Source: a virus. Taken from it: 28,058 nt of DNA. Location: positions 1 through 28,058 of the IMG/VR virus record IMGVR_UViG_3300037189_028204; one strand, written 5' to 3'. Positions 1-24,551 of this stretch are shown piece by piece (position 1 is the first letter of the stretch; each line of letters starts with the position of its first letter). Under the pieces are notes generated by a model, which had not been told where the DNA came from, made no database searches, and worked only from the letters and a program-made list of their open reading frames with translations. The translations under genes were made by a program, and so were the position numbers.

Positions 1-87
1 CGCCGCCGCCGACCCACGAACGCCCGCCGCCGCCGACCCACGAACGCCCGCCGCCGCCGACCCACGAACGCCCGCCGCCGCCGACCC
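1..87. repeat. 24-bp perfect tandem repeat at window edge
   Basis: The unit CGCCGCCGCCGACCCACGAA+CGCC (24 bp) occurs three complete times (1-24, 25-48, 49-72) plus a 15-base partial copy (73-87), with no mismatches. It lies in frame inside the leftward gene that ends off the window, where it encodes the 8-residue repeat GSAAAGVR. Because it abuts the edge of the sequence, the true copy number is unknown and an assembler may have stopped or collapsed here. Confidence 0.95.
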
Positions 88-10003: not shown

Positions 10004-10336
10004 ATGGACACCATCACCGACCGACCGCCCGATCGCAGACGCCCCTGGGGCGGAACGCGCGACGGCTACGAGGACTCCACCCGCCGCCGGGTCGAGCTCC
10101 GCATGCTCTTCCTGGGCCTCACGCAGGCGTCGCTGGGCGCCCGCATGGACCCGCCGACCGACCAGCAGGCGGTCTACCAGTACCTCGTCGGGAAACGCCC
10201 CTGGCGGCGCCGCAGCGGCGATCCGTTGCCCCACGCCATCGACCGCTTCGCCGCGGCTCTCGACGTACCCGTGGAGGCCCTGGAGGTCGGCGGCCCGTGG
10301 GTGGCGCTACTCGCCCCGCCGAGTGACCCGCCGTGA
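10004..10336 (+). CDS. Cro/CI-type helix-turn-helix regulator
   Basis: Encodes 110 residues from ATG 10004, which sits directly at the predicted transcription start. Residues about 38-95 read [20 protein letters not shown], then [20 protein letters not shown] and [16 protein letters not shown], the helix pattern of XRE-family DNA-binding domains. A basic Arg-rich N-terminus precedes it. It is likely a phage transcription regulator, possibly acting on the TTGTAAT or CATTTCGGG elements in this window. Its stop overlaps the next GTG start (GTGA), tying it to the zinc-ribbon and exonuclease genes. Confidence 0.7.
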
Positions 10337-10545
10337 GCCGGGCGAAGGGATTTGTCTGCCACGTCTGCGGGGGTGACACGAAGGTGGTCGACTCCCGACC
10401 GGGCAAGGGCGACGTCCGCCGGCGGCGCGCGTGCATCAAGTGCCCCATCCGGTTCACGACCATCGAGGTCGGCGAGGAAGATCTGAAGCTGCTGCTCGCG
10501 GCGCGAGCGTTCGACAGGCAGATGAAAAAGGAGAGGCTGCTGTGA
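10333..10545 (+). CDS. Stand-alone NrdR-type zinc-ribbon protein (70 aa)
   Basis: GTG start at 10333 overlaps the preceding stop. Cys9-x2-Cys12 and Cys34-x2-Cys37 frame [20 protein letters not shown], followed by RFTTIEV, closely matching the N-terminal zinc ribbon of NrdR (CPFCG...TKVVDSR...IRRRR..C..C..RFTT.E). NrdR represses ribonucleotide reductase genes using an ATP-cone; that domain is missing here. The protein may bind DNA through the ribbon without nucleotide sensing. The stop overlaps the exonuclease start (GTGA at 10542-10545). Confidence 0.8.
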
Positions 10546-11378
10546 AGATCCTCGAGGCCAACATCCTTGTTTTCGACACCGAGACCACCGGCGTCGACCC
10601 GCTGCGCGACGCCATCGTGGAGTTCGCCGCCGTCGAGCTGCGCGCCGGCCGCCCAGGGCGCAGCGCGACCCTGCGCCTCAACCCTGGCTGCCCCATCCCC
10701 GACGGGGCCAGCAAGGTCCACGGCATCTACGACGCCGACGTGGCGAACGAGCCGTTCTTCGACGAGGTCGCCGATCGCGTGGCCGCCCGCCTGGGTGCCG
10801 CCGACTGGCACGTCCTCTGCGGCTACAACGCCGTCCACTTCGACGTGCCGATGGTCAACAGCGCCTTTGAGAACGCGGGGCACCCGTTCCGCATCGACCC
10901 GGCGCGGGTGCTCGACCCGTTCATCTTCCTGCGCCGGCGCCACAACCACCTCCCGTCCAAGCTGGGCGAGGTCTGCCAACGCCACGGCGTCGTGCTCGAC
11001 AACGCCCACGCCGCGGACGCCGACGCCAAGGCCACCGCCGAGCTGCTCACCGTGTTCGTGCGCGAGGGCCTGATGCCCACCGAGATCGACCACGCCCTCG
11101 AAGTCCAGGCCCAGTGGCGCGAGGTGCTCGTCCGCGAGGAGCAGGAGTTCGGGCGCAAGCTCTACCGCGACACCCTGGGCGAGGGTGACTCCGTGCTGCG
11201 CCTGGGCTTCGGGAAGCAGCGCGGCTGCCGCCTCGACCAGGTCGACGGTGGGCTCATCCGCTGGGTGCTCGAGCGCCCCGACTTCCACCCCGGCGCCGTC
11301 GCCGCCTTCAAGGCCGAGCTCGACCGACGCTCCGGCCGCTCGTCACGCCCGACCACCGAGCAGATGTCGTTCGCCTGA
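10542..11378 (+). CDS. DnaQ-like (DEDDh) 3'-5' exonuclease with ExoX-type C-terminal domain
   Basis: Encodes 278 residues from GTG 10542. Exo motifs are D12-T-E14-[12 protein letters not shown]101, and H156-AADA-D161, the DEDDh set of DnaQ/exonuclease X enzymes that degrade DNA from the 3' end using two metal ions. Residues about 210-260 ([16 protein letters not shown]...[13 protein letters not shown]) fit the small GK..G..L..V domain seen at the C-terminus of ExoX-like proteins. All catalytic residues are present, so it should be active. Possible roles are proofreading, replication or host DNA degradation. Its operon with HTH and zinc-ribbon genes implies early expression. Confidence 0.85.
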
Positions 11379-11869
11379 TCCAGCCGTCGCCGTTCTCCCG
11401 AAATCCCCCCCCGTCGCCGATTCCCCGAAATGAAAGCCCGCCCCGCGGCGCCGCTCAGGCCCGCCGATCGGCTGCGCCCGTGCGCCTGCCGTGCGCCGCA
11501 CGTCGGGCTGCGGGGGAACGCCAGGGGGACGGCGGCCGTCGCCGCAGGGTCCTCGGACGCCCCGTCCCCGAAATGGCCCAAAAACCGAAAAATGCCAGGA
11601 ATCGCCCCGAAATGAGGATCCATGCGGAAAATCTCGATTCTGATGCCTCGAAAAAGGGCCAAAAAACTACAAAAACCGACGTTTCTTTACAGGTCGGTCC
11701 ATCCACTTTTCCGCATAGCAGGCCATTTCGGGAGAAGTACGCTTACTTGTAATAGAGATATGGGGCTCAGCGGCGATCTGGCCATTTCGGCGGCCCCTGA
11801 ACCCCCTTCCGTCGTCGCCATCCCACGGATATGCTCGGGACCGTCTGCTACGAACAGCCGGAGGCGGCG
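11379..11869. promoter_or_regulatory. 490-base AT-richer non-coding region with six CCCCGAAATG-type elements
   Basis: No credible gene is seen. The segment from about 11575 to 11760 is visibly richer in A and T than its surroundings. It carries CCCGAAAT (11397-11404), CCCCGAAATG (11423-11432, 11566-11575, 11605-11614), and inverted copies CATTTCGGG (11724-11732) and CATTTCGG (11783-11790); a degenerate CCGAAAAATG lies at 11585-11594. GGCC flanks several copies. A -10-like TAATAG at 11750-11755 lies just after a fifth copy. The array could be an operator set for the HTH protein, or iterons of a replication origin. Confidence 0.6.
11675..11698. repeat. Inverted repeat ACCGAC-12-GTCGGT
   Basis: ACCGAC (11675-11680) and GTCGGT (11693-11698) are perfect inverted arms separated by 12 bases, within the AT-rich part of the intergenic region. 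This could be a hairpin or a protein-binding site. The downstream sequence has no U-run. Confidence 0.45.
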
Positions 11870-12235
11870 GTGAACGTTTGGGGCTTCTTCGCGGTGATCG
11901 TGGCCTGTGCGGTTGGCGCATGGCTGTACCTGCGAAAGCGGGTCGAGGTGGTGAGCGTGGACGAGAGCCGCCGCGTCGCCATGGAGCAGGCGCGCGTCGA
12001 CGCTGCCGACGCCTTCGTCCAGCGCCAGCGCACCGCCGCCCAGATTGCAGCCGAGGGTGAGGCGAAGGCGCAGGCCGAGCGGGTCGTCGTCACGACGGGC
12101 GCCGTGGAGGGTGCCGGGCGCCTCGCCGGAGATCTGCACGCCCAGGCGGATGCGGTCGCCGACATGGTGGGGGCGTCTCCGTCTCACCGTGACACCGATC
12201 CGGGCATGATTCCGCCGCCGGGGCCGCCGAAATGA
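11870..12235 (+). CDS. N-terminally membrane-anchored coiled-coil protein (121 aa)
   Basis: Start chosen at GTG 11870 because GGAGG (11860-11864) lies five bases upstream; the same frame opens earlier at 11831 without such a site. Residues 3-20 (VWGFFAVIVACAVGAWLYLR) form one membrane helix, followed by a charged helical region (ESRRVAMEQARVDAADAFVQ, RQRTAAQIAAEGEAKAQAER) likely to be a coiled coil. The C-terminus is Pro-rich (GMIPPPGPPK). The arrangement is compatible with an inner-membrane spanin or other lysis-related protein, but no endolysin or holin is identifiable nearby. It overlaps the next gene by four bases (ATGA). Confidence 0.65.
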   Translation: MNVWGFFAVIVACAVGAWLYLRKRVEVVSVDESRRVAMEQARVDAADAFVQRQRTAAQIAAEGEAKAQAERVVVTTGAVEGAGRLAGDLHAQADAVADMVGASPSHRDTDPGMIPPPGPPK

Positions 12236-12726
12236 CGCGGATCCTGGTCCTGGCCCTCGTCCTGGTGGCCTGCACGGCACAACCCGCCTTTGCGGGGCTG
12301 CTGGAGGCCTTGCCGGCTCCGTCGTCGCTGCCGCCATACGTCGCCCCCCGTGCCGTGCTCGACGAGCAGCTTCACCTGCCCGCCGGCGAGGCCCCAGACG
12401 TGGAGGCCGCCCGAGTCTGCTACGGCCCTGCCGCCCACCTGCGCCTGACGCTGGCGCTCCAGCTCACGCAGCCGCTCTCCGACGAGCGAGCGCGCGTCGC
12501 CTGGCTGTACGGCTGGCGAGATGCGCAGGAGAAGGCCGCCGCGGCCTTCGACCGTGAACACACAGCCCGGCTCCAGGCCGAGGCCACCGTCACAGCCTAC
12601 GACGCGCGGTTCCAGGCCGCGGAGCGGTCGGAGGACTGGGCATGGTGGCGTCAGCTCGTGACCGGAATCGGCATCTTCGGGCTCGGCGGTCTCGTCGGGG
12701 CCTTGGCATGGGGAGCGTCTCGATGA
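12232..12726 (+). CDS. Lipobox plus C-terminal TM protein, possible unimolecular spanin
   Basis: Encodes 164 residues from ATG 12232 (ATGA overlap). The N-terminus MTRILVLALVLVACTAQPAF has a lipobox L11-V-A-C14; cleavage after AFA at about residue 21 by signal peptidase I is an alternative. The middle is helical and charged (RARVAWLYGWRDAQEKAAAA, FDREHTARLQAEATVTAYDA). Residues about 142-160 (LVTGIGIFGLGGLVGALAW) form a C-terminal membrane helix. Lipid anchor at one end and inner-membrane helix at the other is the layout of u-spanins such as T1 gp11 (131 residues), which fuse the membranes in host lysis. Assignment is by architecture only. The host would need an outer membrane. Confidence 0.6.
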   Translation: MTRILVLALVLVACTAQPAFAGLLEALPAPSSLPPYVAPRAVLDEQLHLPAGEAPDVEAARVCYGPAAHLRLTLALQLTQPLSDERARVAWLYGWRDAQEKAAAAFDREHTARLQAEATVTAYDARFQAAERSEDWAWWRQLVTGIGIFGLGGLVGALAWGASR

Positions 12727-13229
12727 AGAGTCCGTCGGTGTGGGGGCTCCCGGCCCTCGCGTTGGTGTCCTGCTGGGGCAGCGTGGCCATGGCCGAGTCT
12801 CTCGGCGGGGATCCCAGCACAGGGACGCTGATCGGCTACGGGGTGATGGCCGCGATTGCCATTACGCCGACCATCGGCCTGCTGCTCAAGCTCGGCCGCG
12901 ACGTCGGGCGCTACGAGGCGAAGCAGGAGCATCTGTCCGCGAACCTGGCCACGTTGACGGCGCAGCTCCAGACGTCGCTCAACGAGAGGCGCAGCGAGCT
13001 TGCGGCGTACATCGCCGAGGTCCAGAAGTCGCGCGAGGCGGCCCAGAGCGAGAACCGCGAGATGCGCGGCGAGTTCGCCCGGTCCATCGAGCGGCTCACG
13101 GAGCAGATGATGCCCCGCGAGATGTCGGTGCTTCAGCTCCAGGGCCTCACGACCAAGATCGAGGCCGACGTGCTGCGCGGGTTGGTCAAGGAGCTTCGCC
13201 TCCAGCAGCAGGACCACCGAGAGGGGTGA
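12723..13229 (+). CDS. Membrane protein with long C-terminal coiled coil (168 aa)
   Basis: Starts at ATG 12723, overlapping the previous stop (ATGA). Residues 6-24 (VWGLPALALVSCWGSVAMA) are a signal-like segment with a possible lipobox LVSC; residues 35-57 (TLIGYGVMAAIAITPTIGLL) form a membrane helix. Residues 66-160 are a long amphipathic helix (EHLSANLATLTAQLQTSLNE, AEVQKSREAAQSENREMRGE). Could be a holin-like or spanin-related protein; nothing family-specific is recognised. Followed closely by the receiver-domain gene. Confidence 0.6.
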   Translation: MKSPSVWGLPALALVSCWGSVAMAESLGGDPSTGTLIGYGVMAAIAITPTIGLLLKLGRDVGRYEAKQEHLSANLATLTAQLQTSLNERRSELAAYIAEVQKSREAAQSENREMRGEFARSIERLTEQMMPREMSVLQLQGLTTKIEADVLRGLVKELRLQQQDHREG

Positions 13230-13232
13230 CCC

Positions 13233-13595
13233 ATGCGTTTATGGGTGGTCGAGGACGACGATGACTTCCTCCGAGCCCTTCGCTGGCGGCTCAAACGGAC
13301 GGCCCCGCACGTCGAGGTGATTCAGATCGACTCGCCCGACGAGGCGCTACGCCGGATGGTGGCGGGTGATCTCCCCGACGCGCTGATCTCGGACCTGATG
13401 TTCCGGGGGTGCGCCTCGGGCGAGGACGTGATCCTGGCGGCCCGGCGCAGGGACGTGCCGTCGCTGCTGTGCTCCGACCTGATGGAGTCCTTCGGGCCAG
13501 CCGGGATGATCCGCAAGGTCCGGTTCCTGGAGTCGCCGTGGCGTTTCATGTGCGACAAGTCGGTTCCGAGCCTGGAGGCCAGCGCATGCGCGTGA
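13233..13595 (+). CDS. Stand-alone CheY-like receiver domain protein (120 aa)
   Basis: Starts at ATG 13233 with GAGAGGGG upstream. MRLWVVEDDDDFLRALRWRL supplies the acidic pocket (E7/D8/D9), and LISDLMFRG gives the phosphoacceptor candidate D54, matching response-regulator receiver domains, which accept a phosphate from a histidine kinase. The usual Thr/Ser near residue 81 is in LLCSD, and the conserved Lys-Pro is replaced by Ser101-Pro (FLESPWRF). There is no output domain. It may act as a phosphate sink, a decoy, or an unphosphorylated interaction module, unusual in a phage lysis/head interval. The last bases overlap the next gene. Confidence 0.7.
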   Translation: MRLWVVEDDDDFLRALRWRLKRTAPHVEVIQIDSPDEALRRMVAGDLPDALISDLMFRGCASGEDVILAARRRDVPSLLCSDLMESFGPAGMIRKVRFLESPWRFMCDKSVPSLEASACA

Positions 13596-13891
13596 GCGTC
13601 GAAGACCATCAGCCGGGCGAGATCCTGCGCAAACTCCCCGAAATCGTCCGCGAGCTCATGCAGCTCGACGCGGGCGCCATCGCCGAGGCCTGCTCGCACC
13701 ACGACCACGCCGACGAGGCCGCGCTTAGCAAGGCCTGGAAGCCGGGCGAGCCCGATCCGCTCGAGCAGAAGTTCACGCACCCGGTCACGCTGGCGATGTA
13801 CCGCCAGGCCAAGGGCGCCGCCGAGGTGCAGGGCCGGGTCATGGCCGCCGAGGTCAACGCCTACCTCGCTCAGATCGGGCGGGTAAGCTGA
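13586..13891 (+). CDS. Unknown 101-aa protein before minor head protein
   Basis: Start chosen at ATG 13586, with GGAGG seven bases upstream; a GTG at 13592 that overlaps the previous stop is also possible. The product (MRVSVEDHQPGEILRKLPEI...) is predicted helical with the His-rich CSHHDHADEAALSKAWKPGE. C-terminal HPVTLAMYRQAKGAAEVQGR suggests a helical tail. The final TGA overlaps the next ATG (TGATG). No family recognised; its coupling to the minor head gene suggests a head-related role. Confidence 0.65.
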   Translation: MRVSVEDHQPGEILRKLPEIVRELMQLDAGAIAEACSHHDHADEAALSKAWKPGEPDPLEQKFTHPVTLAMYRQAKGAAEVQGRVMAAEVNAYLAQIGRVS

Positions 13892-14793
13892 TGGCGCGCC
13901 CGCTCAACCCCGACGAACTCGCGAAGGTCAAGGACCTCATCCGGCAGAACTTCGTCGTGCTGGCGATCCGGCTGTACGGCGCCGACTCGATCCCGAAGGA
14001 ACTGCTCGACGAGGCGGTCGCCGCAGGCAAGATCACGCAGGCGATGATCGACTCCCTTGGCCGGGGGGCCGCCGGCAACGCATACCTTCTCGGCTACGAG
14101 CAGCACGCGCACCCCGCCCAGGTCGCCAACGTCCGACCCGAGGAGTTCGAGCAGCGCGCCGATCGCATCCACGACGACCTGTCGGACTGGGAGCGGCGGA
14201 TGGCGAAGCAGGCGCGCATGAAGGGGGCGCAGCTCATCGTGGGCCTGGGCAACGAGGTGGCCGACGACTTCACCACGACGGTCATCAACTCCGACAACGA
14301 GCAGGCCCGCGAGGCCCGTCGGGTGATCGCCGAGGAGACGGCCAGCGCCATCGAGGCGCGGGAGTCGTGGCGCCGGCTGCGCGGCACCCTGGGCGAGAAG
14401 CTCGGCGAGGACTGGGCGCGCGATCTACACCGCATCGCCGCGACCGAGATCCAGGCGGCGGTGAACGCGGGCATCGCCGACGCCATCGAGGAAGACGAGG
14501 GGCACGAGGCCCTGGTGGCGGTGATCCCCAACCCGGACGCATGCGAGGTCTGCCTCGGCTTCTACACCCGCGCCGGAAAACCGCGGATCTTCAAGCTCGC
14601 CGACCTGCCGCCGCATGGGGTCAATCACAAGAAGCCGAAGTCGCAGTGGGTGCCGTGTCTGCCTCCAAGTCATCCGTTTTGCGCGTGTAGTCTTACAGCG
14701 GTTCCCGACGGCTGGACCTTCGACGACGACTGGGTGTTGCGTCCCCCGCCGACCGCGCCGGTCATCCCGCAGCAGATCTCCGAGGATCTGTGA
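13891..14793 (+). CDS. Minor head protein, SPP1 gp7/Mu gpF-like (phage head morphogenesis)
   Basis: Encodes 300 residues from ATG 13891 (TGATG overlap). Residues about 180-200 (DLHRIAATEIQAAVNAGIAD) correspond to the conserved A.TE...A.N.G helix of head morphogenesis proteins. The C-terminal zinc-like cluster follows: NPDACEVCLGF near residue 215, then PKSQWVPCLPPSHPFCACSL, the usual HP.C.C ending. In SPP1 gp7 binds the portal and aids DNA delivery, while gpF of Mu acts in head assembly. In other phages this family is often fused to toxin or ADP-ribosyltransferase domains; here the fused-type domains sit in separate downstream genes. Confidence 0.85.
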   Translation: MARPLNPDELAKVKDLIRQNFVVLAIRLYGADSIPKELLDEAVAAGKITQAMIDSLGRGAAGNAYLLGYEQHAHPAQVANVRPEEFEQRADRIHDDLSDWERRMAKQARMKGAQLIVGLGNEVADDFTTTVINSDNEQAREARRVIAEETASAIEARESWRRLRGTLGEKLGEDWARDLHRIAATEIQAAVNAGIADAIEEDEGHEALVAVIPNPDACEVCLGFYTRAGKPRIFKLADLPPHGVNHKKPKSQWVPCLPPSHPFCACSLTAVPDGWTFDDDWVLRPPPTAPVIPQQISEDL

Positions 14794-16451
14794 TGCTCCG
14801 CCTGCTCATCGTCCCGCCCGCTCCGCTGAGAAAGTCCGACCCGAAGCCCCCGCCCGGCTTCCACGCGGCTCCCGGATCGAAGCACGGCGGTTGGACGGAC
14901 GGGCAGGGGCGCTACTGGTATCCGGGGCATGTGGGGCAGGTGCAGGCGGTGCCGCCCGGCAAGGGCGCCGCGGAGGCGCTGGACGTCCACGGTTCGGGCC
15001 CGGCCGGCAGCGTCTTCGCGATCAGTTCGCACCCGGCCGTGGCGCAGCCGAAGCGCACGGCGCTCGTCCACCTGCCCACGGGGCGCGTGCTCGGGCAGAT
15101 CCAGGGCCAGTCCGCGGCGATGTCCGCGGTCGAGGCGCTGCACGACAAGCACTCGGAGTTCGGCGCCGACAAGGCCGTCGGCGGGTTCCTCGACGCGAAG
15201 GACTACGCGTCGGCGAAGAGCACGATCGCCACGGCGACCGCGGCGCCCCACGTCTCGATGCCGAAGAAGCAGCCCACGGCAGCGCCCGCGTCAGCGCCGC
15301 CCCCGGTCGCCGCTGAGCCTGCGTCGCCGGCGACGATGACCAAGGTGGGCGACAAGCCGGGCGGGGCGTCCCCCGGATCCGTCGTCGCCATCACCGGGCG
15401 GTCGGGCAACTGGCTGCTCAAGCCCGAGGGGCCCGTCAAGGTCACGGCCGAGGCGGCGGGCTCGCAGCTCGCGGCCCTGGTGCTCGGGGCCGGCAACGTG
15501 AACGTGGCGGAGGTGGTCCCGCTCGAGGGCGTGGCCGACGAGCTCGCGCACGGGTTCACCCAGGGCACCGTGCAGCAGATGATGCCCCACGCGGGCGCGC
15601 TGCCGAAGTCGGGGCCCGGCCTCGCCGCGCTCAGCCACGACGACCACGCCGAGCTGCTGGCCTCACACGTTGCGAACTGGCTCGTGGCGGATCACGACGC
15701 CCACGGCGGGCAGTACCTCCGCAAGCCCGACGGGAACGGGCTGCTCAAGATCGACTTCGCGCAGGCCTTCAAACATCTGGGCGACGACAAGCTCGACACG
15801 AGCTACCACCCCAACGCGAAGTTCGGCGAGGCGCAGCCAGCGCCGATCCAGGTGATGGCCGCGTTCGAGGCGGGCAAGATCCCGCTCGACTTCAACGACC
15901 CCCGCATTTTGAAGGCGGTCGAGGCGGCCGAGGCCATCCCCGACGCCACCATCGAGCAGCTCGTTAAGCCCTACGCCGACGCTTCGTCCCAGGCGTTCGG
16001 CAAGTCGGCGGCCGGCATCGTGGCCGCGGTCGTCGCCCGGAAGAAGAGCGTCCGCGCCGACTTCGAGGACTGGTTCTCGCGCGCGCTGACGAAGCGCATG
16101 GGCCAGCCCATCGCGTTCAAGTTCGGGGCACCGCCGGTGGCGAAGTCGTTCCGCTTCACCTTCGCGGCCGGGCTGCTGAAGGCGACCCGCGAGACGGGCG
16201 TGGCACCGCTGCCCGAGGATGCGATCGTGGCCGAGGACGGCAGCCTCACCGAACGGGGCGAGGACCTGCTCGAGTCGTTCGCGCGCCTGGTGCAGTCGCG
16301 CCATCCCGACGCCCCGACCAACCGGGCGGCCGTGGCCCTGGACGACGATCTGGGCCCGGTGCTCCAGCGCCTCGCCCTGGCGGGCGACATCGTGGACGAC
16401 GTGTTGTCCGACGTCTCGGCGCGCCGCGCCGTGGGGAGGATCGCGGCATGA
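14793..16451 (+). CDS. PI3/4-kinase/HipA-fold kinase-like head-cluster protein
   Basis: Encodes 552 residues from ATG 14793 (TGATG overlap; a GTG at 14790 is immediately upstream). N-terminus MLRLLIVPPAPLRKSD resembles the start of the 1289-residue protein. GSKHGGWTDGQGRYWYPG near residue 30 is a diverged relative of the GPxGG module. Residues about 90-150 share AL(V)VHLPTGR...GGFLDAKDYASAK with the metalloprotease. From about 195 a kinase fold follows: GNWLLK210P (ATP-binding Lys), AD300HDAH304GGQ307YL (catalytic loop; canonical D.H..N has Asn where Gln stands) and KID321FAQAF (metal-binding Asp). It may phosphorylate a protein or lipid in the infected host. The Asn-to-Gln change may reduce activity. 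Confidence 0.75.
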   Translation: MLRLLIVPPAPLRKSDPKPPPGFHAAPGSKHGGWTDGQGRYWYPGHVGQVQAVPPGKGAAEALDVHGSGPAGSVFAISSHPAVAQPKRTALVHLPTGRVLGQIQGQSAAMSAVEALHDKHSEFGADKAVGGFLDAKDYASAKSTIATATAAPHVSMPKKQPTAAPASAPPPVAAEPASPATMTKVGDKPGGASPGSVVAITGRSGNWLLKPEGPVKVTAEAAGSQLAALVLGAGNVNVAEVVPLEGVADELAHGFTQGTVQQMMPHAGALPKSGPGLAALSHDDHAELLASHVANWLVADHDAHGGQYLRKPDGNGLLKIDFAQAFKHLGDDKLDTSYHPNAKFGEAQPAPIQVMAAFEAGKIPLDFNDPRILKAVEAAEAIPDATIEQLVKPYADASSQAFGKSAAGIVAAVVARKKSVRADFEDWFSRALTKRMGQPIAFKFGAPPVAKSFRFTFAAGLLKATRETGVAPLPEDAIVAEDGSLTERGEDLLESFARLVQSRHPDAPTNRAAVALDDDLGPVLQRLALAGDIVDDVLSDVSARRAVGRIAA

Positions 16452-16642
16452 AGGTGTTCGACGACGACGGCATGTTCACGCCCGAGGCGGAGGCGCTCGT
16501 GCGGAAGTACGCGGCCGCGGTCGTCGAAGGCGACGACGACGATCGGTCGGAAGCGCGTGACGCGGCGCCCGAGCCGGTGCGCCACGTCCTCGACGATCTC
16601 GACGTCTCGATGGCCCTGGCCCTGTACCTCGCGGAGGTGTGA
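16448..16642 (+). CDS. Small acidic protein (64 aa)
   Basis: ATG 16448 overlaps the kinase gene stop (ATGA), and its own TGA overlaps the next start (TGATG). The product is strongly acidic (DDDGMFTPEAEALVRKY, EGDDDDRSEARD) with a hydrophobic C-terminal helix (VSMALALYLAEV). Unknown; possibly an accessory or antidote-like partner of the adjacent large proteins, but nothing in the sequence proves this. Confidence 0.6.
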   Translation: MKVFDDDGMFTPEAEALVRKYAAAVVEGDDDDRSEARDAAPEPVRHVLDDLDVSMALALYLAEV

Positions 16643-19600
16643 TGTTCCGGCTGCTGCTGCCCACCGGCCTCCAGAAGTCGAGCGGGAAGCTCGGCGTGAT
16701 CGCCATCGGCCCGAAGGGCGGTCAGATCGTGGGGTACGCCCACGGCGACATGAAGAAGCCCATCTACGCGGGATCGGCGGCCGCGGCGAAGCTGGCGCAG
16801 GCCCAGGGGCACAAGGGCGAGGCGGCGGCCGGGACGTTCGGCCTGGCCGAGTGGCTCGACGCGCTCACCAGCAACTATGGCCTCGCGGTGCAGCACCACG
16901 CCGGCGACGCGGCAACCATCACCAGCCCGACGACTCCGCACGCGATCGTGCTCGCGCAGGCCTCCATGCCGGGGGCGCACTTCGGCGCGCTCCAGGAGAC
17001 GGCGAGCGGCTGGGCTGCGACGGCCACGTTCAAGCCGGGCACCAAGGACGAAGCGGCCGCGGGCGGCAAGCAGTCGCTGGTGCATCAGGGCGGGCTGAAG
17101 CCGCCGGGCTGGCCGGACAGCGTCCCGCCGCCGGGCACGGTCATCAAACGCTCGGCCGGTGGTCACACCTACCTGCTGACGATCTCGGCGGGCGCCGACG
17201 GGAAGACGCCGCGCTACCTCGTGACCGCGCCGCCCGGCGCCCCGCTGTTCGCCTTCACCTCGACGGCCCAGGGCGGCATCGTCAAGGGCACGATCGGGCA
17301 CCCGGATCTGTCGGTCACGGTGGCGTTCGACACGCACACCGCCGCGGCGGTGGCCATCGTCGGCCCGAAGGTCTCGGCCGAGGGCGTCGGGCAGATCAAA
17401 TGCACCTCGGGCCCGAACTGGTGGGGCTGGTGGGCCGAGGCGGGCAAGACCGCGCCGATCTCCACGGCGGCCGGGCAGGACACGCCCCCGGACTGGCTGG
17501 CGAAGCAGCCGGAGACGGGCGTGCTGACGCCGGATGCGGCGCTCTCCAGCGGCGTCTTCGGCAAGGTTTGGCCGTCCGGCGTTGCCCCCGCGTCGCCAGC
17601 CCCCGCCGATCTGCCGCCCCCCGAGCCCGTTGCAGATCTCCCGCCCGCGCCCGAGTCGCTCTCGCCGCCGGCGAAGCCGTGGCCGGATGGCGCGGCTCCC
17701 GTCGGTGGCTCGCACACCTTCGGGCTCCACGGCCACCAGGTCAGCGTCGAGGTGGTGGACGCAGGCGTCGCGCCCGGCTACGTCGTGACGGTGCCATCCG
17801 ATCCGGCGGACGTGGGGCACTTCTACGGCTCCCTCGAGGACCTCAAGCTGCACCTCGACGCGGTGGCCGGTGGTGAGCCGGAGTCGGATGGGAGCCTGCC
17901 GACGTTCCTGACGGGTGAGCAGATCCAGGCGGCGCTCGGCGGCGCCCCGGCCCCGGCGGAGGAACCGGCTGCGCCGGCCGCGCCCGAGCCGGAGCCCGCG
18001 GTGCCGTCGCCACCTTCGCCCGAACCTCCACCCGCGGCGGGCCCAGCCGCCCACCCAGGCTGGTCGAAGCTGCCGTCCGGTGTGTCGCACGGGTTCAGCT
18101 CGCAGAAGGCGCTGAAGCCCGGCAAGGCCCCGGAGAACAAGGGCAAGCTGGCGGTGCTGACGGTGGTGTCGGGCGCCGACGGCGCGCCGAAGTACCAGGT
18201 CACGCTCCCCGAGGGCGGGGCGCTCTACAACGACCCGGACACGGGCAAGCTGATGCCCGCCCCGAAGGTGTTGGCGCCCGGCGAGAGCGCAACGTTCTCC
18301 AGCTCCACGACGGCGGCCGAGGCGCTGATGAACGCCCCGAGCACGGGGTTCATCTTCTGGGGAATGAAGCCGGGGAAGTCTGGGAAGCTGGAGGCTGTGG
18401 TCCTGCCGCCGGCAGCCCCGCCGCCGTCTGCGCCCCCGGTGCCGCCCCCGGCGGAGGCATCGCCCATCACCACCCCGGAGCCGACCCCCGAGCCCGAGCC
18501 CGAGATCCCCGCGGCGCCTGCGCCCCCCGCGAAGAAGAAGTCGAAGAAGAAGGCCGCGGTCGAGCCCCCCGCCGCCGCCACCGCGAAGCCGAGCGGGTGG
18601 GCGGCCTGGCTGGCGAAGCACCCCGGCACAGCGACGTCCGAGTGGCTCGACGAAGCCCCGGCCGGCACGGCCATCCCGGCGGTCGGTGGTGGCCACGTAT
18701 GGAAGTCGGTGGCCGGCGGCTGGGTGGACACCAGCGGCGCGCCCGCATCTCCGGATCTGACCTCGGCCACCCCGGACGGGATCGCGGCTGCCGAGGGCGT
18801 GGGCCCCGACGGCATGAAGCACGCGACCGGGACGAAGTTCGTCTGGGCGTCGACCTCGAAGACCGCCGGCTCGGAGCTCTACAACGACCTGCTCAAGGCG
18901 TTCCCCGGCGCCATCATGGAGGCGAACACGCAGACGGCGAAGGGCGTGCCGCTGCCGCCGAACGTCTACAAGGTGCAGTTCCCGCTCACGCTGCTCCCGT
19001 CGAGCGTGGACGCCTCGGACAAGGCCGCGGTGAAGGCCTACGTCGAGGGCGTGGTCCTGCCGCTGCTGCCGAAGTACGGGTTCAAGCCCTTCACGAAGGA
19101 GCTGTGCAACCACGTCGGCGGCACGAACGCCTTCGCGAACATCACGGGCGACGCGGACGCGATCGTCGCGGTCGAGACCAGCATGCAGGCGATCCCGCCG
19201 GCTGCCACCGGCACGAACGCCCACATGCTGCACGACGAGGCGATGTTCTCGGCGGGCACGCCATGGCACGGCCACGGCATCGACCTCGACGGTGGGCTCA
19301 TCCGCGATCAGTACGCCTCGGTGACGAAGCGAAAGGGCGGTGCCCGCGAGGTTCGGTTCAAGCTGACGCCCTGGGGGGCCGCGGCCGTTGGTGCGAAGCT
19401 CGCCGGTGCTCCGGCGGGGGCGTGGGACCTGGGCGGCGGAAACTTCGACCCCAAGGCGGGCGAGGTGGACGCCATCGGCCTCGTGCATCACACCACGCCG
19501 ACGAAGGTGCTCTCCGGGCCGGGCTGGACGGCGCACTTCTCCACCGACTCCACCTGGGCGATGCAGCACGCGGTCAAGGTCGACGTGGAGCCCGGCAACC

Positions 19601-20511
19601 CCGTGGCGGCCGCGATGGCGGAACTCGCCGAGCAGCTCGGCATGCCGCAGATCGCGGTGCCCCCCGGCGACGAAGACCGCGAGCACATGAAGCTGCGCAA
19701 GCTGCTCTGGAACGTCTCGCCGAAGAAGCACAACGAGCTGTTCGGCAAGCTGGGCGACACGCCGTCCCCGCCCCCGAGCAGCGCAGATCTGCGCGTCGCG
19801 CTGAAGGCCGCCGGCCTGCCCCTGGAGCAAATCGACAAGGCCGAGGTCGTGTCCATCGGCTCCGGGCACCGCACCGTGCGGATTCAGGACGGACAGTCCT
19901 TCATCGACAAGGGCATCCACGGCCTCTACCACAACTGGTACTCGAGCGACGCGAAGGACCTGGCACGCAAGCTGGCCTCGGGCGGCAACGTGGCGACGGC
20001 GCAGCGCTGGAAGACGGGCATGGGCGGGTACGGGCAGTCGTCGCCGTCGGACATGGCCAGCGGCGGCGCGGACTACGTGTTCCACTACGCCTTCCGGGCC
20101 GACAAGGACTCGGCCTTCTCCGGGCTCAGCGCGGGGCATGGCCTGCACATCGTCACGGGCGCCGAGACGCTCGAGCGAGCGGACTGGCACTCGTGCCCGC
20201 ACGACAACTATGGCAGCACGATCAACGACAGCTTCTCGGACCGGAAGCCGCGAGCGACCGCGCTGAACACGCACAAGGCCGGCTCGGGCGAGGTCATGGT
20301 GCAAAACCAGGTGGCTCTCGATGACATCCGGGCCATCGTCTGCAACACGGCGAAAAAGCGGCAGGACGCGATCTCCGAGTTCAAGTCGCTGGGCGTACAC
20401 ACCATCGGCGGTCGCCCGGTCGAGGAAGTCGTGGTAACCTCACACGCTGAGGCCGGGGCGCTTGTGAAGGCGTCCTGGGCCGCGACGATCCAGGCCAGGA
20501 GCCAGCCGTGA
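16642..20511 (+). CDS. Giant multidomain head-cluster protein with GPKGG module, beta repeats and toxin-like C-terminus
   Basis: Encodes 1289 residues; ATG 16642 (GGAGG at 16633-16637) is preferred over the GTG at 16639. The shared module is at residues 22-40 (IGPKGGQIVGYAHGDMKKPI, then YAGS). Three related beta segments follow near residues 183, 370 and 510 (GADGKTPRYLVTAPPG, APGYVVTVPSDPADVGHFYG, GADGAPKYQVTLPEGG), joined by long Pro/Ala/Glu linkers with a KKKSKKK patch. The C-terminal ~170 residues (GNVATAQRWKTGMGGYGQSS, ASGGADYVFHYAFR, SGEVMVQNQVALDDIRAIV) resemble toxin/ADP-ribosyltransferase-like ends of phage head-associated proteins from memory, with EVMV as candidate Glu strand; this is tentative. 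Likely a virion-packaged effector. Confidence 0.75.
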   Translation: MFRLLLPTGLQKSSGKLGVIAIGPKGGQIVGYAHGDMKKPIYAGSAAAAKLAQAQGHKGEAAAGTFGLAEWLDALTSNYGLAVQHHAGDAATITSPTTPHAIVLAQASMPGAHFGALQETASGWAATATFKPGTKDEAAAGGKQSLVHQGGLKPPGWPDSVPPPGTVIKRSAGGHTYLLTISAGADGKTPRYLVTAPPGAPLFAFTSTAQGGIVKGTIGHPDLSVTVAFDTHTAAAVAIVGPKVSAEGVGQIKCTSGPNWWGWWAEAGKTAPISTAAGQDTPPDWLAKQPETGVLTPDAALSSGVFGKVWPSGVAPASPAPADLPPPEPVADLPPAPESLSPPAKPWPDGAAPVGGSHTFGLHGHQVSVEVVDAGVAPGYVVTVPSDPADVGHFYGSLEDLKLHLDAVAGGEPESDGSLPTFLTGEQIQAALGGAPAPAEEPAAPAAPEPEPAVPSPPSPEPPPAAGPAAHPGWSKLPSGVSHGFSSQKALKPGKAPENKGKLAVLTVVSGADGAPKYQVTLPEGGALYNDPDTGKLMPAPKVLAPGESATFSSSTTAAEALMNAPSTGFIFWGMKPGKSGKLEAVVLPPAAPPPSAPPVPPPAEASPITTPEPTPEPEPEIPAAPAPPAKKKSKKKAAVEPPAAATAKPSGWAAWLAKHPGTATSEWLDEAPAGTAIPAVGGGHVWKSVAGGWVDTSGAPASPDLTSATPDGIAAAEGVGPDGMKHATGTKFVWASTSKTAGSELYNDLLKAFPGAIMEANTQTAKGVPLPPNVYKVQFPLTLLPSSVDASDKAAVKAYVEGVVLPLLPKYGFKPFTKELCNHVGGTNAFANITGDADAIVAVETSMQAIPPAATGTNAHMLHDEAMFSAGTPWHGHGIDLDGGLIRDQYASVTKRKGGAREVRFKLTPWGAAAVGAKLAGAPAGAWDLGGGNFDPKAGEVDAIGLVHHTTPTKVLSGPGWTAHFSTDSTWAMQHAVKVDVEPGNPVAAAMAELAEQLGMPQIAVPPGDEDREHMKLRKLLWNVSPKKHNELFGKLGDTPSPPPSSADLRVALKAAGLPLEQIDKAEVVSIGSGHRTVRIQDGQSFIDKGIHGLYHNWYSSDAKDLARKLASGGNVATAQRWKTGMGGYGQSSPSDMASGGADYVFHYAFRADKDSAFSGLSAGHGLHIVTGAETLERADWHSCPHDNYGSTINDSFSDRKPRATALNTHKAGSGEVMVQNQVALDDIRAIVCNTAKKRQDAISEFKSLGVHTIGGRPVEEVVVTSHAEAGALVKASWAATIQARSQP

Positions 20512-20918
20512 TCACAGCCAAGCCCCAGCACGCCGCGCTGAACGCCGCCCTCGCCGCCCACCGCCTGTGGGTCATCGAGGGACTGCCGCTCGGCCCGATG
20601 GTGGCGATCTCGCCCCAGGCCGGCAGCCTCGACGGTGGCGACACGCCCGAGCCGCACCCGGACGTCGACAGGGATCACCTCGTCTTCTGCGACGGCGGCC
20701 GCGACCGCAACCCGATGTGCGAGGGGCTGGCGCTGGCGGAGGGCTGCGTCACGTTCACCGCGCCGCACTGGGCAGGCGAGGTCGCGCTGAAGCTGCGGCC
20801 CCTCGATCTGGCGCTGGCGAAGCAGATGGGCATGAAGCCGAGCGGCATCGACCTGGTCGACCTGGAGCCCGGCGTCACCGAGCACGAGGACGTCTTCGAC
20901 GGGCTGTTCCCGCGGTGA
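20508..20918 (+). CDS. Unknown 136-aa protein
   Basis: Starts at 20508 with ATGA-type overlap (GTGATCACA: GTG start sharing the TGA of the giant gene) and ends overlapping the next GTG (GTGA). Residues include LWVIEGLPLGPMVAISPQAG and LALAEGCVTFTAPHWAGEVA, a compact globular protein with no export signal. The last third (DLVDLEPGVTEHEDVFDGLF) is acidic. No family recognised. Tight coupling on both sides suggests it works with one of the two neighbouring large proteins, perhaps as chaperone or immunity partner, which is inference. Confidence 0.7.
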   Translation: MITAKPQHAALNAALAAHRLWVIEGLPLGPMVAISPQAGSLDGGDTPEPHPDVDRDHLVFCDGGRDRNPMCEGLALAEGCVTFTAPHWAGEVALKLRPLDLALAKQMGMKPSGIDLVDLEPGVTEHEDVFDGLFPR

Positions 20919-22396
20919 GCCAGGCGGTCGTCAAGATCGGCCCCCACGGCGGCAAGATCGTGGGCTTCCACAACGGCAAGCCCATCTACCTGAGCGAGGG
21001 CACAGCACCGGGCGGCACGCACGACTCGGCCGCAGCCGCCCACGGGTCACCAGCGCACGCCGCGCAGATCGCGGGGCTCCAGGTGGGCACGCACCCCACG
21101 CAGCACGACATGGTGCAGGTGGCCTGGAAGCCGGCGAGCGCCGCGGGCGCTTCGTGGCTGTCGACGCACCCGCTGCCCGAGGGCGCGCGGCATGTGTCGA
21201 CCCCTGCGGCCAGCATCGCGCTGGTCCCGAAGTCATGGGCGCATGCCCCTGCGACCCCGCCAGCCCTGGCCGCAGCCGGCGTCGAGGCCGTGGACAAGGC
21301 CACGCTGAAGAACCCCGTGACGAAGTGGGTCGACTCCCCCCGGCACCCGGTCACCGTGAACGGCGTCGCCGGCGAGCTCGTCGGCTGGGAGGTCACGGGC
21401 GCGCCGCCGCAGAAGACCGGGCGGCTGGTGGTGATGACGCCGGGCCCGAGCCGCCTGGGCGGCATCCTGGCGGCCTACGACCAGGACCAGGTCACGCCGA
21501 CGAAGGCCGAGGCGCACGCGCCGTGGCAGGGTGAGCGCGTGCGCGTCTGGAAGTCCGCCGCGGCGACCGAGGTGGTCAACAAGCTCCTGGCCGGCGCGGC
21601 GCCTGGCCTGGGCGGCAAGACGCGCATGCAGGTCATCGAGGCGCTTCAGAGCGGCGGGATCCCGACCTACCCGATGGGTGGGTTCGTGCGCGACGCGCTC
21701 CAGGGCAAGGACTCGAAGGACATCGACCTGAGCATGGGCGGCGACTGGACCGAGATCGTGTCGGTCGCCTCGAAGAAGAAGATCGCCTACACGCCGCCGG
21801 GCGGCGGAGGCCTCGTCTCGTTCGGGAAGAAGGACGGCACCGGCCCGCCGCTGGAGGGCAAGGCCATCATGGGCCTCAACGCCGATCGCCACGCGCTCGC
21901 CCCGTCCGCTCCCGTCACCACGGACGCGGACCTCGAGGCCGAGTGCATCTACGGCGACTTCACCTCGGGCCGGCTCTGGTACGACACGGTCAACGAGACG
22001 ATCATCGACCCCACGGGCCACGGCGTCGAGGACGCGCTCAACCATGTGTTGCGCATCCCCGTACCGAAGGAGCAGTGGGGCGACTGGGCAGCAGGCAGCC
22101 CGGACAAGATCTGGCGCTACTGGAAGTTCACCGCGCGCGACGAAAAGCCCGCCGACGAGGAGACACGGCAGTTCTTCATCTCGAAGGCGCAGGAAGTGTT
22201 CGCACCCGGCGCGTCGGTCTGGACCGCGCCGCACAACCTGCGCGTGCGCCTCCAGAAGGGCGTGCTCGACGGAGACTTCGGCAGCGCCGGTCAGGTGAAG
22301 CTCGACGCGTTCAAGACCGCGGTGGTGTCTGATCTGGGCGAGGCGTTCTGGGACGCGCACTGGAAGCCGCACGTCCCCCACGGCATGAAGGGGTGA
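20915..22396 (+). CDS. CCA-adding enzyme/poly(A) polymerase-like nucleotidyltransferase with N-terminal GPHGG module
   Basis: Encodes 493 residues from GTG 20915. The shared module is the very N-terminus (VVKIGPHGGKIVGFHNGKPI, then Y). After a linker domain, residues 253-272 read PMGGFVRDALQGKDSKDIDL, the class II nucleotidyltransferase signature (GG.VRD.L.G....D.D.) with D269 and D271 as metal ligands. Further CCA-enzyme-like motifs follow in order: GDFTSGRLWYD (348-), ETIIDPTGHGVEDALNHVLR (361-) and IWRYWKFTAR (398-). Such enzymes add CCA or A-tails to RNA 3' ends. The canonical RRD..N.A residues are changed to YGD..SGRL, so substrate choice may differ. It may act on tRNA or mRNA of the host after injection. 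Confidence 0.8.
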   Translation: MSQAVVKIGPHGGKIVGFHNGKPIYLSEGTAPGGTHDSAAAAHGSPAHAAQIAGLQVGTHPTQHDMVQVAWKPASAAGASWLSTHPLPEGARHVSTPAASIALVPKSWAHAPATPPALAAAGVEAVDKATLKNPVTKWVDSPRHPVTVNGVAGELVGWEVTGAPPQKTGRLVVMTPGPSRLGGILAAYDQDQVTPTKAEAHAPWQGERVRVWKSAAATEVVNKLLAGAAPGLGGKTRMQVIEALQSGGIPTYPMGGFVRDALQGKDSKDIDLSMGGDWTEIVSVASKKKIAYTPPGGGGLVSFGKKDGTGPPLEGKAIMGLNADRHALAPSAPVTTDADLEAECIYGDFTSGRLWYDTVNETIIDPTGHGVEDALNHVLRIPVPKEQWGDWAAGSPDKIWRYWKFTARDEKPADEETRQFFISKAQEVFAPGASVWTAPHNLRVRLQKGVLDGDFGSAGQVKLDAFKTAVVSDLGEAFWDAHWKPHVPHGMKG

Positions 22397-22399
22397 CGG

Positions 22400-22612
22400 A
22401 TGGCGCGCAGGCTCTACCTGAAAGGCCCGGACGGGCGATACGACCTCGACCCGACCGAGGCCGACACACTGTTCTCGGCGAGCGAGCGTCACATCGAACC
22501 GACCGAGAGCATGCTGATCAACCCGACCCCCGGCTGGGTGACGCTCGTCGACGGTCGAGATGTGGGCGCGGTCCTGGGGGACGGCGGGCTCGCCATCGTG
22601 GTACACGACTGA
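22400..22612 (+). CDS. Small unknown protein (70 aa)
   Basis: ATG 22400, three bases after the nucleotidyltransferase stop. MARRLYLKGPDGRYDLDPTE suggests a small beta/alpha fold; the C-terminus (WVTLVDGRDVGAVLGDGGLA) ends in short hydrophobic strands. No motif is recognised. It sits between the effector-like genes and the zinc-ribbon gene. Confidence 0.6.
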   Translation: MARRLYLKGPDGRYDLDPTEADTLFSASERHIEPTESMLINPTPGWVTLVDGRDVGAVLGDGGLAIVVHD

Positions 22613-22613
22613 C

Positions 22614-22895
22614 GTGCATATCCGCTGCCCGAACTGCAACGCGAGTCTGGCGAAGAGCCAGGCGGGCCGCCTCAAGGTCCGTCTGCCCATCCTGAGCTTC
22701 CGCCGCACGGACGCGGACGGTGGACACGTCTGCGAGACGGTCTGCCCGGCGTGCAAAGCGGACGTGCCGATCCCGCTGACCATCGCCGACGAGGGGCTCG
22801 TGAAGTCGCTCGCCCCGCCCCCTGCCGCGCCGCCGTTGGGGCTGCGGTTGTCCCTGCGCTCGCAAACCTTGACGCCAGCCATCCCCGCCGAATAG
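22614..22895 (+). CDS. Zinc-ribbon protein, Com-like (93 aa)
   Basis: Start GTG at 22614 (MHIRCPNCNASLAKSQ). Cys5-x2-Cys8 and Cys44-x2-Cys47 give a zinc ribbon, with an additional Cys40. The beginning IRCPNCNASLAKSQAGRLKV resembles Mu Com and related phage zinc-finger proteins (IRC.NC...L.K). Com acts in translational control of the mom modification gene; here no such target is visible. The C-terminal half is Pro/Leu-rich and probably disordered. It is the last gene before a strong terminator. Confidence 0.65.
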   Translation: MHIRCPNCNASLAKSQAGRLKVRLPILSFRRTDADGGHVCETVCPACKADVPIPLTIADEGLVKSLAPPPAAPPLGLRLSLRSQTLTPAIPAE

Positions 22896-22952
22896 CGTTG
22901 GGTCACACGTCGGCCTCAAACCGACACTGACGCCCTGGCCACAAGCCTGAGA

Positions 22953-22985
22953 GGGCGCTTCTGCGAAAGCGGGGGCGCCCTTTTT
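22953..22985 (+). terminator. Intrinsic terminator
   Basis: GGGCGC-UUCUGC (22953-22964), tetraloop GAAA, and GCGGGG-GCGCCC (22969-22980) form a 12-pair stem with three G-U pairs and a GNRA loop, followed directly by UUUUU (22981-22985). It closes the transcript coming from the effector-like genes and separates it from the protease-capsid operon. Confidence 0.85.
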
Positions 22986-23001
22986 GCGTTTGGAGTTCCC
23001 G

Positions 23002-23811
23002 TTGCCCGCAGAGTCGTTTCACCGCTGGATTCCGTTCCAGGTCGTCGGCCTCGAAAAGGGCTCGGACGGCAAGGAGCGCGTGCGCATCCGCGGGCTGGCG
23101 AGCACCGAGCACATGGACCAGGACGGCGACACGATCGTCCAGGACGGGCTCGACTTCAGCTACTTCCTGAAGCGCGGGTTCTTCAACGACAACCACAGCA
23201 AGGAAACGGCCGACGTCCTGGGCTACCCGGACAAGGTCTACCCGGTCACCATCGACGACGACGGGAAGAAGGTTCGCGCGACCGCCGTGGAGGGCTACCT
23301 GCTCGACACGCCGGAGGCCATGCGGATCGCTGACCTCGCGCGCTCGCTCGATGGCACGCCGCGGCAGCTCGGGTTCTCGGTCGAGGGCCCGCCGCCCGTT
23401 CGCGATCCGCGCAACCCCGCCCGGATCGTGAAGGCGACCGTGCGCAACGTCGCCATCACCAACTGCCCGGTGAACCCGTTCACGAAGCTGGACCTGGTGA
23501 AGTCGATGCGGTTCGCGAAGGCGCTCAGCGCCGGCGGGCCCGCGCAGGCGCCGGGTGTGGTCGTGGCCGGCAGCGCCCGCCCGCTCATGCCCGAGTCGCT
23601 CGGCCTGCGCCTGCCCATCGGCGGCCCGGATCCGGTGGCCGTGGCGAAGCGGGCGAAGGCGCTCACCGACGAATGGCTCAAGGCCAACGGCGGGCTCTCG
23701 CTCGAGAAGAGCCTGGCCATCCGGCTGATCAAAGCTCGGCACCCGCAGGCGACGCCCGCGGAGGTCGACCGCATCCTGGCGCAGGCGCGCCGATTGGGAG
23801 AGGACCGATGA
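23002..23811 (+). CDS. Prohead protease
   Basis: Encodes 269 residues from TTG 23002, chosen because GGAG (22992-22995) is six bases upstream and an earlier TTG at 22984 would begin inside the terminator U-run. Motifs of the herpes-like/HK97 prohead-protease fold are GLASTEHMDQDGDTIVQDGL, FFNDNH65SKE and LGFS126VEGPP, with His65 and Ser126 as candidate catalytic residues; the third member of the triad is not assigned. It cleaves scaffold and other internal head proteins during maturation. The C-terminus is helical (LVKSMRFAKALSAGG, LEKSLAIRLIKARHPQ). Its stop overlaps the scaffold ATG. Confidence 0.8.
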   Translation: MPAESFHRWIPFQVVGLEKGSDGKERVRIRGLASTEHMDQDGDTIVQDGLDFSYFLKRGFFNDNHSKETADVLGYPDKVYPVTIDDDGKKVRATAVEGYLLDTPEAMRIADLARSLDGTPRQLGFSVEGPPPVRDPRNPARIVKATVRNVAITNCPVNPFTKLDLVKSMRFAKALSAGGPAQAPGVVVAGSARPLMPESLGLRLPIGGPDPVAVAKRAKALTDEWLKANGGLSLEKSLAIRLIKARHPQATPAEVDRILAQARRLGEDR

Positions 23812-24551
23812 AGAAGAAGGACTTCCTGGCGACGCTGAAGGCCATGCCGGACTGCGAGGCGAAGGACAAGCTCATCAAGTCGTTCGAGGACGACAAGGAG
23901 AACGTCGAGGACGACGACGACGAGGCCGAGGGCGACAACGAGAAGTCCCTGACGGTCGGCGCCGGCGGTCTGTCCAAGGCGCTCGAGGAGTTGGAGCGCA
24001 TCCAGGGCGCGGGCGCCCCGGCCATCGCCCCCCTCGGTGCGCGCATGGGCGACAACGCCGACGTGAGCCTTGCGAAGTCGATGGACGCCACCGGCTTCGT
24101 GAAGTCGCTCGTCGAGCAGGTCGCCGCGCACTCCGACGACCTCGGCGCCGCGGTGTCCGAGATCAGTCAGCAGCAGGGCGTGAACAACACGGCCGTGCTG
24201 GCGACGGGCAAGCTGATGCTCTCGCTCGTGAAGAGCATCCAGGAGCGCGACGCCAAGATCGACGCGCTGATCGCCGCGGTGAACGCCCCGGCTCAGCCCC
24301 GCACGACGACGACCGCTCGCCCAATGGCGAAGAGCTTCAACGCCGGCGGCGGTGGCGGCGAGGCGCCCCAGGGGCTCAGCAAGGGCCAACTCGCGAACCT
24401 CATGAACGGCGAGCTCAAGAAGAGCATGGAGGCGGGCGATCACGGTCGCGCGCACCAGCTCCAGGAGAGCGTCGCGCTGTTGCTGGCCGGGAAGAAGAAC
24501 GGCCTGGCGACGGAGATCGAGCAGTCCCACCTGCGCAAGGCCCAGGCCTAA
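23808..24551 (+). CDS. Scaffold-like acidic protein
   Basis: Encodes 247 residues from ATG 23808 (ATGA overlap). Sequence is strongly helical and charged, with an acidic stretch (SFEDDKENVEDDDDEAEGDN), glycine-rich breaks and seven hydrophobic-x-K-S words (LIKSF, NEKSL, LAKSM, FVKSL, LVKSI, MAKSF, LKKSM). Position between protease and capsid is that of scaffolding proteins, which direct capsid assembly and are then cleaved. The repeated LxKS words are candidate cleavage or binding sites. No sequence family recognised; the assignment rests on place and composition. Confidence 0.75.
   Translation: MKKKDFLATLKAMPDCEAKDKLIKSFEDDKENVEDDDDEAEGDNEKSLTVGAGGLSKALEELERIQGAGAPAIAPLGARMGDNADVSLAKSMDATGFVKSLVEQVAAHSDDLGAAVSEISQQQGVNNTAVLATGKLMLSLVKSIQERDAKIDALIAAVNAPAQPRTTTTARPMAKSFNAGGGGGEAPQGLSKGQLANLMNGELKKSMEAGDHGRAHQLQESVALLLAGKKNGLATEIEQSHLRKAQA

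Follow-up and report, generated by a model that had tools for sequence, protein, structure and literature searches.

A conserved, duplicated non-coding element with inverted words in a high-GC phage: candidate replication origin or promoter/operator region

What function may be served by a short word, repeated in both orientations within the largest non-coding gap of a viral sequence? The question is raised by the window analysed here, a stretch of 28,058 nucleotides of DNA, which the first-pass annotation had singled out for an array typical of iterons or cooperative operators. Compared with IMG/VR record 3300032330_002408 (78,926 bp, hereafter G001), the window shows 100% identity across all 28,058 bases; it is therefore the same virus, and G001 contributes no independent evidence. 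Comparison was extended to a more distant relative, record 3300013131_000222 (G002, 25.9 kb), whose exonuclease and portal proteins are 76% and 83% identical to those of G001. No terminase gene was recognised in these two incomplete contigs. The genome is about 70% GC in G001, and portal and capsid proteins are similar to those of the SPO1-like myovirus lineage, their identity being no more than about 33%: judging from these similarities, the phage is most likely a distant SPO1-related myovirus of a high-GC host. DNA relatives were sought among phages and plasmids, and relatives of the portal in GTDB, in both cases with no result, and no close cultured member of the group was found. At its left end the window carries a perfect 24-bp tandem repeat, CCCGCCGCCGCCGACCCACGAACG (window 1-87; G001 1-113, 4.7 copies in G001), which is probably the point of an assembly break.

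The description of the array given by the first-pass annotation holds well. All six word matches were recovered, the first four sharing one orientation and the last two, further downstream, being inverted: three are exact copies of CCCCGAAATG, two differ from it by one mismatch (TCCCGAAATG and CGCCGAAATG) and one, TCCCGAAATC, by two (Table 1). The GGCC said to flank several of them is present on the TG side of three words (11566, 11724 and 11783). A simple gene caller places the largest non-coding gap of the window at 11379-11830 (452 bp), with the DnaQ-like exonuclease on its left and small membrane-protein genes on its right, as described; the gap is also AT-richer, with 63% GC as a whole and 45% where it is conserved. 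An imperfect 27-bp tandem repeat (CCGTCGCCGTTCTCCCGAAATC...; window 11384-11440), seen only at this locus, holds two of the words.

Counting the word genome-wide gives an answer which depends on the stringency of the match. The exact 9-mer CCCGAAATG occurs 7 times in G001 (78.9 kb), against 0.14 expected under a third-order Markov model, and is thus about 50-fold enriched; four of these occurrences lie in the 452-bp gap, two in a second copy of the element described below (copy B) and one is intragenic. When up to two mismatches are allowed, 26 words are found in the whole window against 25.9 expected, with no enrichment. The latter figure is what could be said for a chance clustering of a functionless word; this explanation, hardly credible in our view, is contradicted by the enrichment of the exact word and by the existence of a conserved duplicate (E 6e-24) with a core that is invariant in the relative.

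Table 1. Features of the repeated-word locus and of neighbouring or associated genes (window coordinates, unless G001 is indicated)
Feature	Position	Strand	Remarks
XRE/434-repressor-like HTH protein	10004..10336	+	candidate binder
DnaQ-like DNA polymerase exonuclease, left of element	10539..11378	+	PF00929 5e-24; phrog_192 4e-42
Extra word TCCCGAAATC	11396..11405	+	within imperfect 27-bp tandem repeat
Extra word CCCCGAAATG	11423..11432	+	copy A-specific
Extra word CCCCGAAATG	11566..11575	+	39 bp upstream of left arm
Conserved composite non-coding element, copy A	11588..11759	+	sequence-only model match, E 6e-43 (by construction, see text)
Left conserved block, A-tract then ATGCC(A/T)G(A/G)AATCGCCCCG	11589..11609	+	near-invariant in A, B, C
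Left arm CCCCGAAATG (CCCCGTAACC in G002)	11605..11614	+	
Nested arm ATGCGGAAAA	11622..11631	+	complementary to 11707-11716 in copy A (repeat search)
Weak internal word repeat CCTCGAAAAA (CCCCGAAAAC in copy B)	11647..11656	+	about 42 bp after left arm (alignment)
Inverted repeat ACCGAC-N12-GTCGGT	11675..11698	.	kept in copy B, half lost in G002
Right arm, inverted TCCCGAAATG	11724..11733	-	adjoins GAAGTACG
Invariant core TTTCGGGAGAAGTACGCTTACTTGTAATAGA	11726..11756	+	includes near-palindrome AAGTACGCTTACTT (11735-11748)
Extra inverted word CGCCGAAATG	11783..11792	-	immediately right of element
Small membrane-like protein, first gene right of element	11831..12235	+	ORF, gene caller; G002 homologue 66% identical
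Gene 72, prim-pol/helicase-like, 1412 aa	G001 70549-74787		

The words surround, and in part belong to, a larger non-coding AT-rich element of about 172 bp, copy A in the window; this element, its duplicate and its invariant core are absent from the first-pass annotation. Searched as DNA against G001, the gap returned a second copy of part of itself at 74518-74691 (78%), self-BLAST of G001 aligned 163 bp of the two at 78.5% (E 6e-24), and an ungapped alignment places copy B at 74514-74684, 63 kb from copy A, the two being 75% identical over about 172 bp with no indels. Copy C lies on the minus strand of G002 (20122-20291), at a place syntenic with copy A, and is 57-59% identical to the other two (57% to A), again with no indels; copies A and B are closer to each other than either is to C. 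GC content is 45% in A, 50% in B and 57% in C. When the three copies, i.e. three sequences from two incomplete contigs, are aligned on GAAGTACG, zero gaps are found over roughly 170 bp, and the distance from the start of the left CCCCG to the start of GAAGTACG is exactly 129 bp in each of them. Non-coding DNA under no constraint should have gathered some indels at the divergence of A and C, and the length of the element is therefore probably constrained. The identity profile of the ungapped alignment is low inside the element and high in its flanks. The significance of the model match to copy A (Table 1) is given by construction, because the model was built from these same three copies; the model found no element in nine more distant records.

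Two other readings of the conservation were examined and rejected. Coding is excluded, as mismatches fall evenly on the codon phases and the single frame that B and C both leave open is interrupted by stops in copy A. Identity of 78% over 163 bp, with a conserved inside, is not what is seen in att sites, i.e. direct repeats flanking an insert. The locus holds a real, conserved, duplicated cis element.

The most invariant part of the element is the core, which is asymmetric and lies at the gene-proximal end, the right arm CATTTCGGG being joined directly to TTTCGGGAGAAGTACGCTTACT[A/T]GT[A/T]AT; the middle is AT-rich and poorly conserved. Across IMG/VR the 16-mer GGGAGAAGTACGCTTA has no occurrence outside the three copies. 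Both phages carry AGTANNNNTACT at these sites and nowhere else, and no match to the core pattern GGAGAAGTACGCTTACTNGTNAT exists among the genomes of some 85,000 GTDB species. Within the 79 kb of G001, TTACTNGTNATAGAG has no match besides the two cores, and allowing three mismatches in the core yields one extra match only, on the minus strand. Looser core patterns, searched in IMG/VR, gave one coincidental match, within the coding sequence of an unrelated phage gene, and three unrelated matches. A second, related near-palindrome, GGGTACACTTACCC, was noticed in the same gap of G002 (around 20314; L018 1685-1700), oriented opposite to the core.

Both arms of G002 read CCCG[A/T]AACCGC, a string found at only those two places in its 25.9 kb, and the nested pair differs as well (GGGAATTCTGG and CCAGAATCCC), while duplex energies indicate only a weak nested pair in copy B. 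Loss of the word in related phages had been proposed by the first-pass annotation as a refutation; the arm word is indeed changed in G002, yet the element is kept, and the finding is therefore not refuted. Complementarity of the arms is equalled by none of 2000 shuffled arms in A, by none of 2000 in C and by 37 of 2000 in B, a marginal excess over shuffled arms; copy B keeps just the 9-bp closing arms, and its own pairing is weak. Duplexes of cognate arms have energies of -20.7 (A) and -23.0 kcal/mol (C), against -17.7 and -13.0 when the arms of A and C are swapped; at random GC-rich genome positions with the same spacing, from 141 to 904 out of 2000 pairs are as strong as the arm duplexes or stronger. 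Arms changing in step are expected if one protein binds both sites, or if the arms pair as a stem-loop in DNA.

The same pairing might be read at the RNA level, as a leader or small RNA folded from one strand and closed by the CCCCGAAATG/CATTTCGGG stem. The closing stem can be drawn in all three copies, with two double changes, and fold z-scores on the minus strand approach -2 for A and C; copy B, however, folds no better than shuffled sequences (z -0.4 to -0.8). Judged from the arm duplexes, stem-loop pairing is strong in A and C and weak in B, and covariation among the three sequences is near the level of shuffled controls (65/500). No Rfam family was recognised, the only match (E 0.89, below gathering) being at chance level, and the extra words outside the stem are left unexplained, so that a structured RNA appears quite improbable. 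No convincing intrinsic terminators were found in the element copies.

Since the word clusters in two non-coding elements that are homologous, and the arms have co-changed in the relative, a clustered cis-acting array of candidate binding sites is well supported on comparative grounds. To this extent the first interpretation stands. Regular iterons do not: word spacings are 27, 143 and 39, orientation is mixed, unlike a regular direct-repeat layout, and only two words occur in copy B and in G002. The functional unit is the fixed-length composite with its invariant core, not the word alone, and may be either an origin or an operator.

Genes next to the copies offer candidate partners for the array. 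Copy B is associated with gene 72, which contains archaeo-eukaryotic primase-polymerase motifs (FADIDCD, SGGGLHPFW and RILRLPGTHNQK) followed by helicase-like motifs, the helicase part being SF2-like in look. Profile matches are to phrog_2478 (4e-7) and, below cut-off, to PF16793 (RepB_primase, 2e-4); no SF3, winged-helix or PF02399 (Herpes_ori_bp) match was detected in the profile search. No relatives of gene 72 or gene 73 were found in cultured phages, nor any, by tblastn, of the C-terminal 595 aa of gene 72, and the predicted structure of gene 73 was of too poor a quality for use. The coding signal of gene 72 breaks off at the start of copy B, with GC3 dropping from 0.93-1.0 to about 0.5 at 74509, and the reading frame happens to stay open through the copy with a non-coding-like GC3. 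This arrangement recalls in-frame palindromic repeats, and copy B could be seen as a small mobile or selfish repeat, inserted in frame at the 3' end of the gene; the likeness of A and B, exceeding that of either to C, would fit such an event. Conservation, however, reaches beyond the arms on both sides, G002 has the element in a syntenic position, no more than two copies exist in 79 kb and their internal length is constrained, all of which makes this explanation very improbable.

Near copy A, the HTH protein encoded at 10004-10336 is a candidate binder: its predicted model (pLDDT 68.6) has the 434 repressor as best fold match (E 0.01, prob 1.0), and its G002 homologue matches HTH_31 at 2.8e-5, just below the curated cut-off. 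The other HTH gene, gene 64, was rejected as binder, its own divergent upstream region (G001 64253-64405) carrying a different inverted repeat, AACGGC/GCCGTT. Other genes of the window include a small NrdR-like zinc-ribbon protein (10333-10545; PF22811 7e-12) between the HTH gene and the exonuclease, a protein with weak response-regulator receiver similarity (13233-13595; PF00072 1.3e-3, below cut-off) in the structural region, and a large protein with a tRNA nucleotidyltransferase-like domain (20915-22396; phrog_2244 4e-6).

Third-position GC skew passes from -0.20 to 0.00 exactly at copy A (gain 32.5, against a permuted maximum of 19.8), and the same step is found at the homologous place in G002. 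There is no sign reversal, the step ends near 24.6 kb where no element lies, and none is seen at copy B. It could reflect a change of replication or transcription regime, or of gene content, and chooses neither. In both G001 and G002, the genes corresponding to window 11831-24551 have a third-position skew near zero, between stretches near -0.2.

The reading that we tentatively prefer, at somewhat less than even confidence, is that the element may be one of a pair of replication origins, akin to the inverted-repeat origin of pRN1 and BIP-1. We infer binding, unwinding, priming and origin activity along the following lines. A phage initiator, plausibly the prim-pol/helicase encoded beside copy B, would bind the inverted CCCGAAATG arms on either side of the AT-rich, length-fixed spacer. 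Opening of this spacer would follow, helped by the nested inverted repeats, which can fold into a stem-loop, and primer synthesis by the prim-pol would begin close to the invariant core. AT-richness, duplication, the syntenic copy in G002, fixed spacing, co-changed arms, arm complementarity above that of shuffled arms, the location of copy B 3' of a prim-pol gene and the skew step at A all count for an origin. Against it count the weak pairing of copy B, the many random positions at which pairing equals or exceeds that of the arms, the lack of a sign reversal in the skew and of a step at copy B, an RNAalifold covariation term of only -0.43, the lack of SF3 and PF02399 matches in the helicase part of gene 72, and the gene-proximal, asymmetric core, which suits a promoter too.

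A close rival, to which we give only slightly less confidence than to the origins, is that the two copies are promoter/operator regions, since each is followed at a short distance by a gene on its own strand. The core would be a phage- or host-specific promoter with AAGTACGCTTACTT as palindromic operator, and the CCCGAAATG words would be cooperative sites for a regulator, possibly the XRE-like protein at 10004-10336, joined by a loop of fixed spacing. A same-strand gene follows just downstream in all three copies, starting about 70-110 bp past the core at A and B, and the core is the most invariant part; the extra words, in both orientations, resemble an operator array, the repressor-like HTH gene nearby is kept in G002, and the skew step at A fits a strong promoter equally. 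On the other hand, zero E. coli-type sigma-70 -35/-10 sites at standard spacing were found in A, B and C (host promoters may differ), two cores in 79 kb are few for a class of phage promoters, the region beside the other HTH gene has its different inverted repeat, and about 172 bp of exactly kept length are long for a promoter. The origin and promoter/operator readings may overlap.

As far as could be found, origins of phages with archaeo-eukaryotic prim-pols are almost unmapped, the sole worked example being plasmid pRN1, to which a predicted origin in one group of phages may be added. With its exact spacing, invariant core and co-changing arm word, the present candidate, compact and duplicated, is directly testable DNA. 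Should it be a promoter pair instead, it would define a two-site regulon in this phage group.

Among known systems, lambdoid or 434-type repressor operator arrays share with the locus oriented repeated words near a gene start and a close XRE/434-like HTH gene; unlike them, the locus has no sigma-70 promoter found inside, its words are spread over 400 bp and its binder is a candidate only. In pRN1, a stem-loop of about 100 nt, located 3' of the prim-pol gene and poorly conserved inside with well conserved flanks, is essential for replication, and phage BIP-1 is predicted to have a similar one 3' of its replication gene (PMC4234260). The present element likewise is a non-coding stretch in the 100-170 bp range, directly 3' of the prim-pol gene at copy B (of the exonuclease gene at copy A), with an inverted repeat, a poorly conserved inside and conserved flanks, and with pairing that may be kept as sequence changes between A and C. 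It differs in being longer, in having an invariant core and in its two copies, one far from the prim-pol gene and the other weakly paired; in addition, the helicase part of gene 72 looks SF2-like, not SF3, and a winged-helix domain at the C-terminus was not found.

Fusions of prim-pol proteins with remote SF2 helicases resembling the herpes origin-binding protein UL9 have been described (PMC5862659). In herpes oriS the inverted sites enclose an AT-rich spacer, the length of which is critical, and the genome has redundant origins (PMC12543377). As in herpes simplex oriS/oriL with UL9, short inverted sites flank here a fixed-length AT-rich spacer (45-57% GC), with an extra inverted site, two copies of the element and an SF2-type helicase as putative initiator; the spacer is about 110 bp against about 20, host and virus are unrelated, and gene 72 has no detectable PF02399 match. 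The satellite phage P4 replicates with two separate cis regions, ori1 and crr, which contain the same iteron word in both orientations. Two cis regions with a word in both orientations, and a primase-helicase as putative initiator, are features of the present phage as well, where word density is lower, the sequence is unrelated and the primase is not of the Toprim type of P4. The mechanism of the P4 alpha primase-helicase initiator has been summarised (PMC4234260).

On paper the element would work like the pRN1/BIP-1 and herpes origins, from which it is set apart by the lack of SF3/winged-helix and PF02399 matches in gene 72. It is conceivable, though unlikely, that it represents a class of phage replication origins not described before: an inverted-repeat element, duplicated and locked in length around an invariant core, which would be recognised by a fusion of an archaeo-eukaryotic prim-pol with an SF2-like helicase, its copies forming an ori/crr-like pair in a myovirus.
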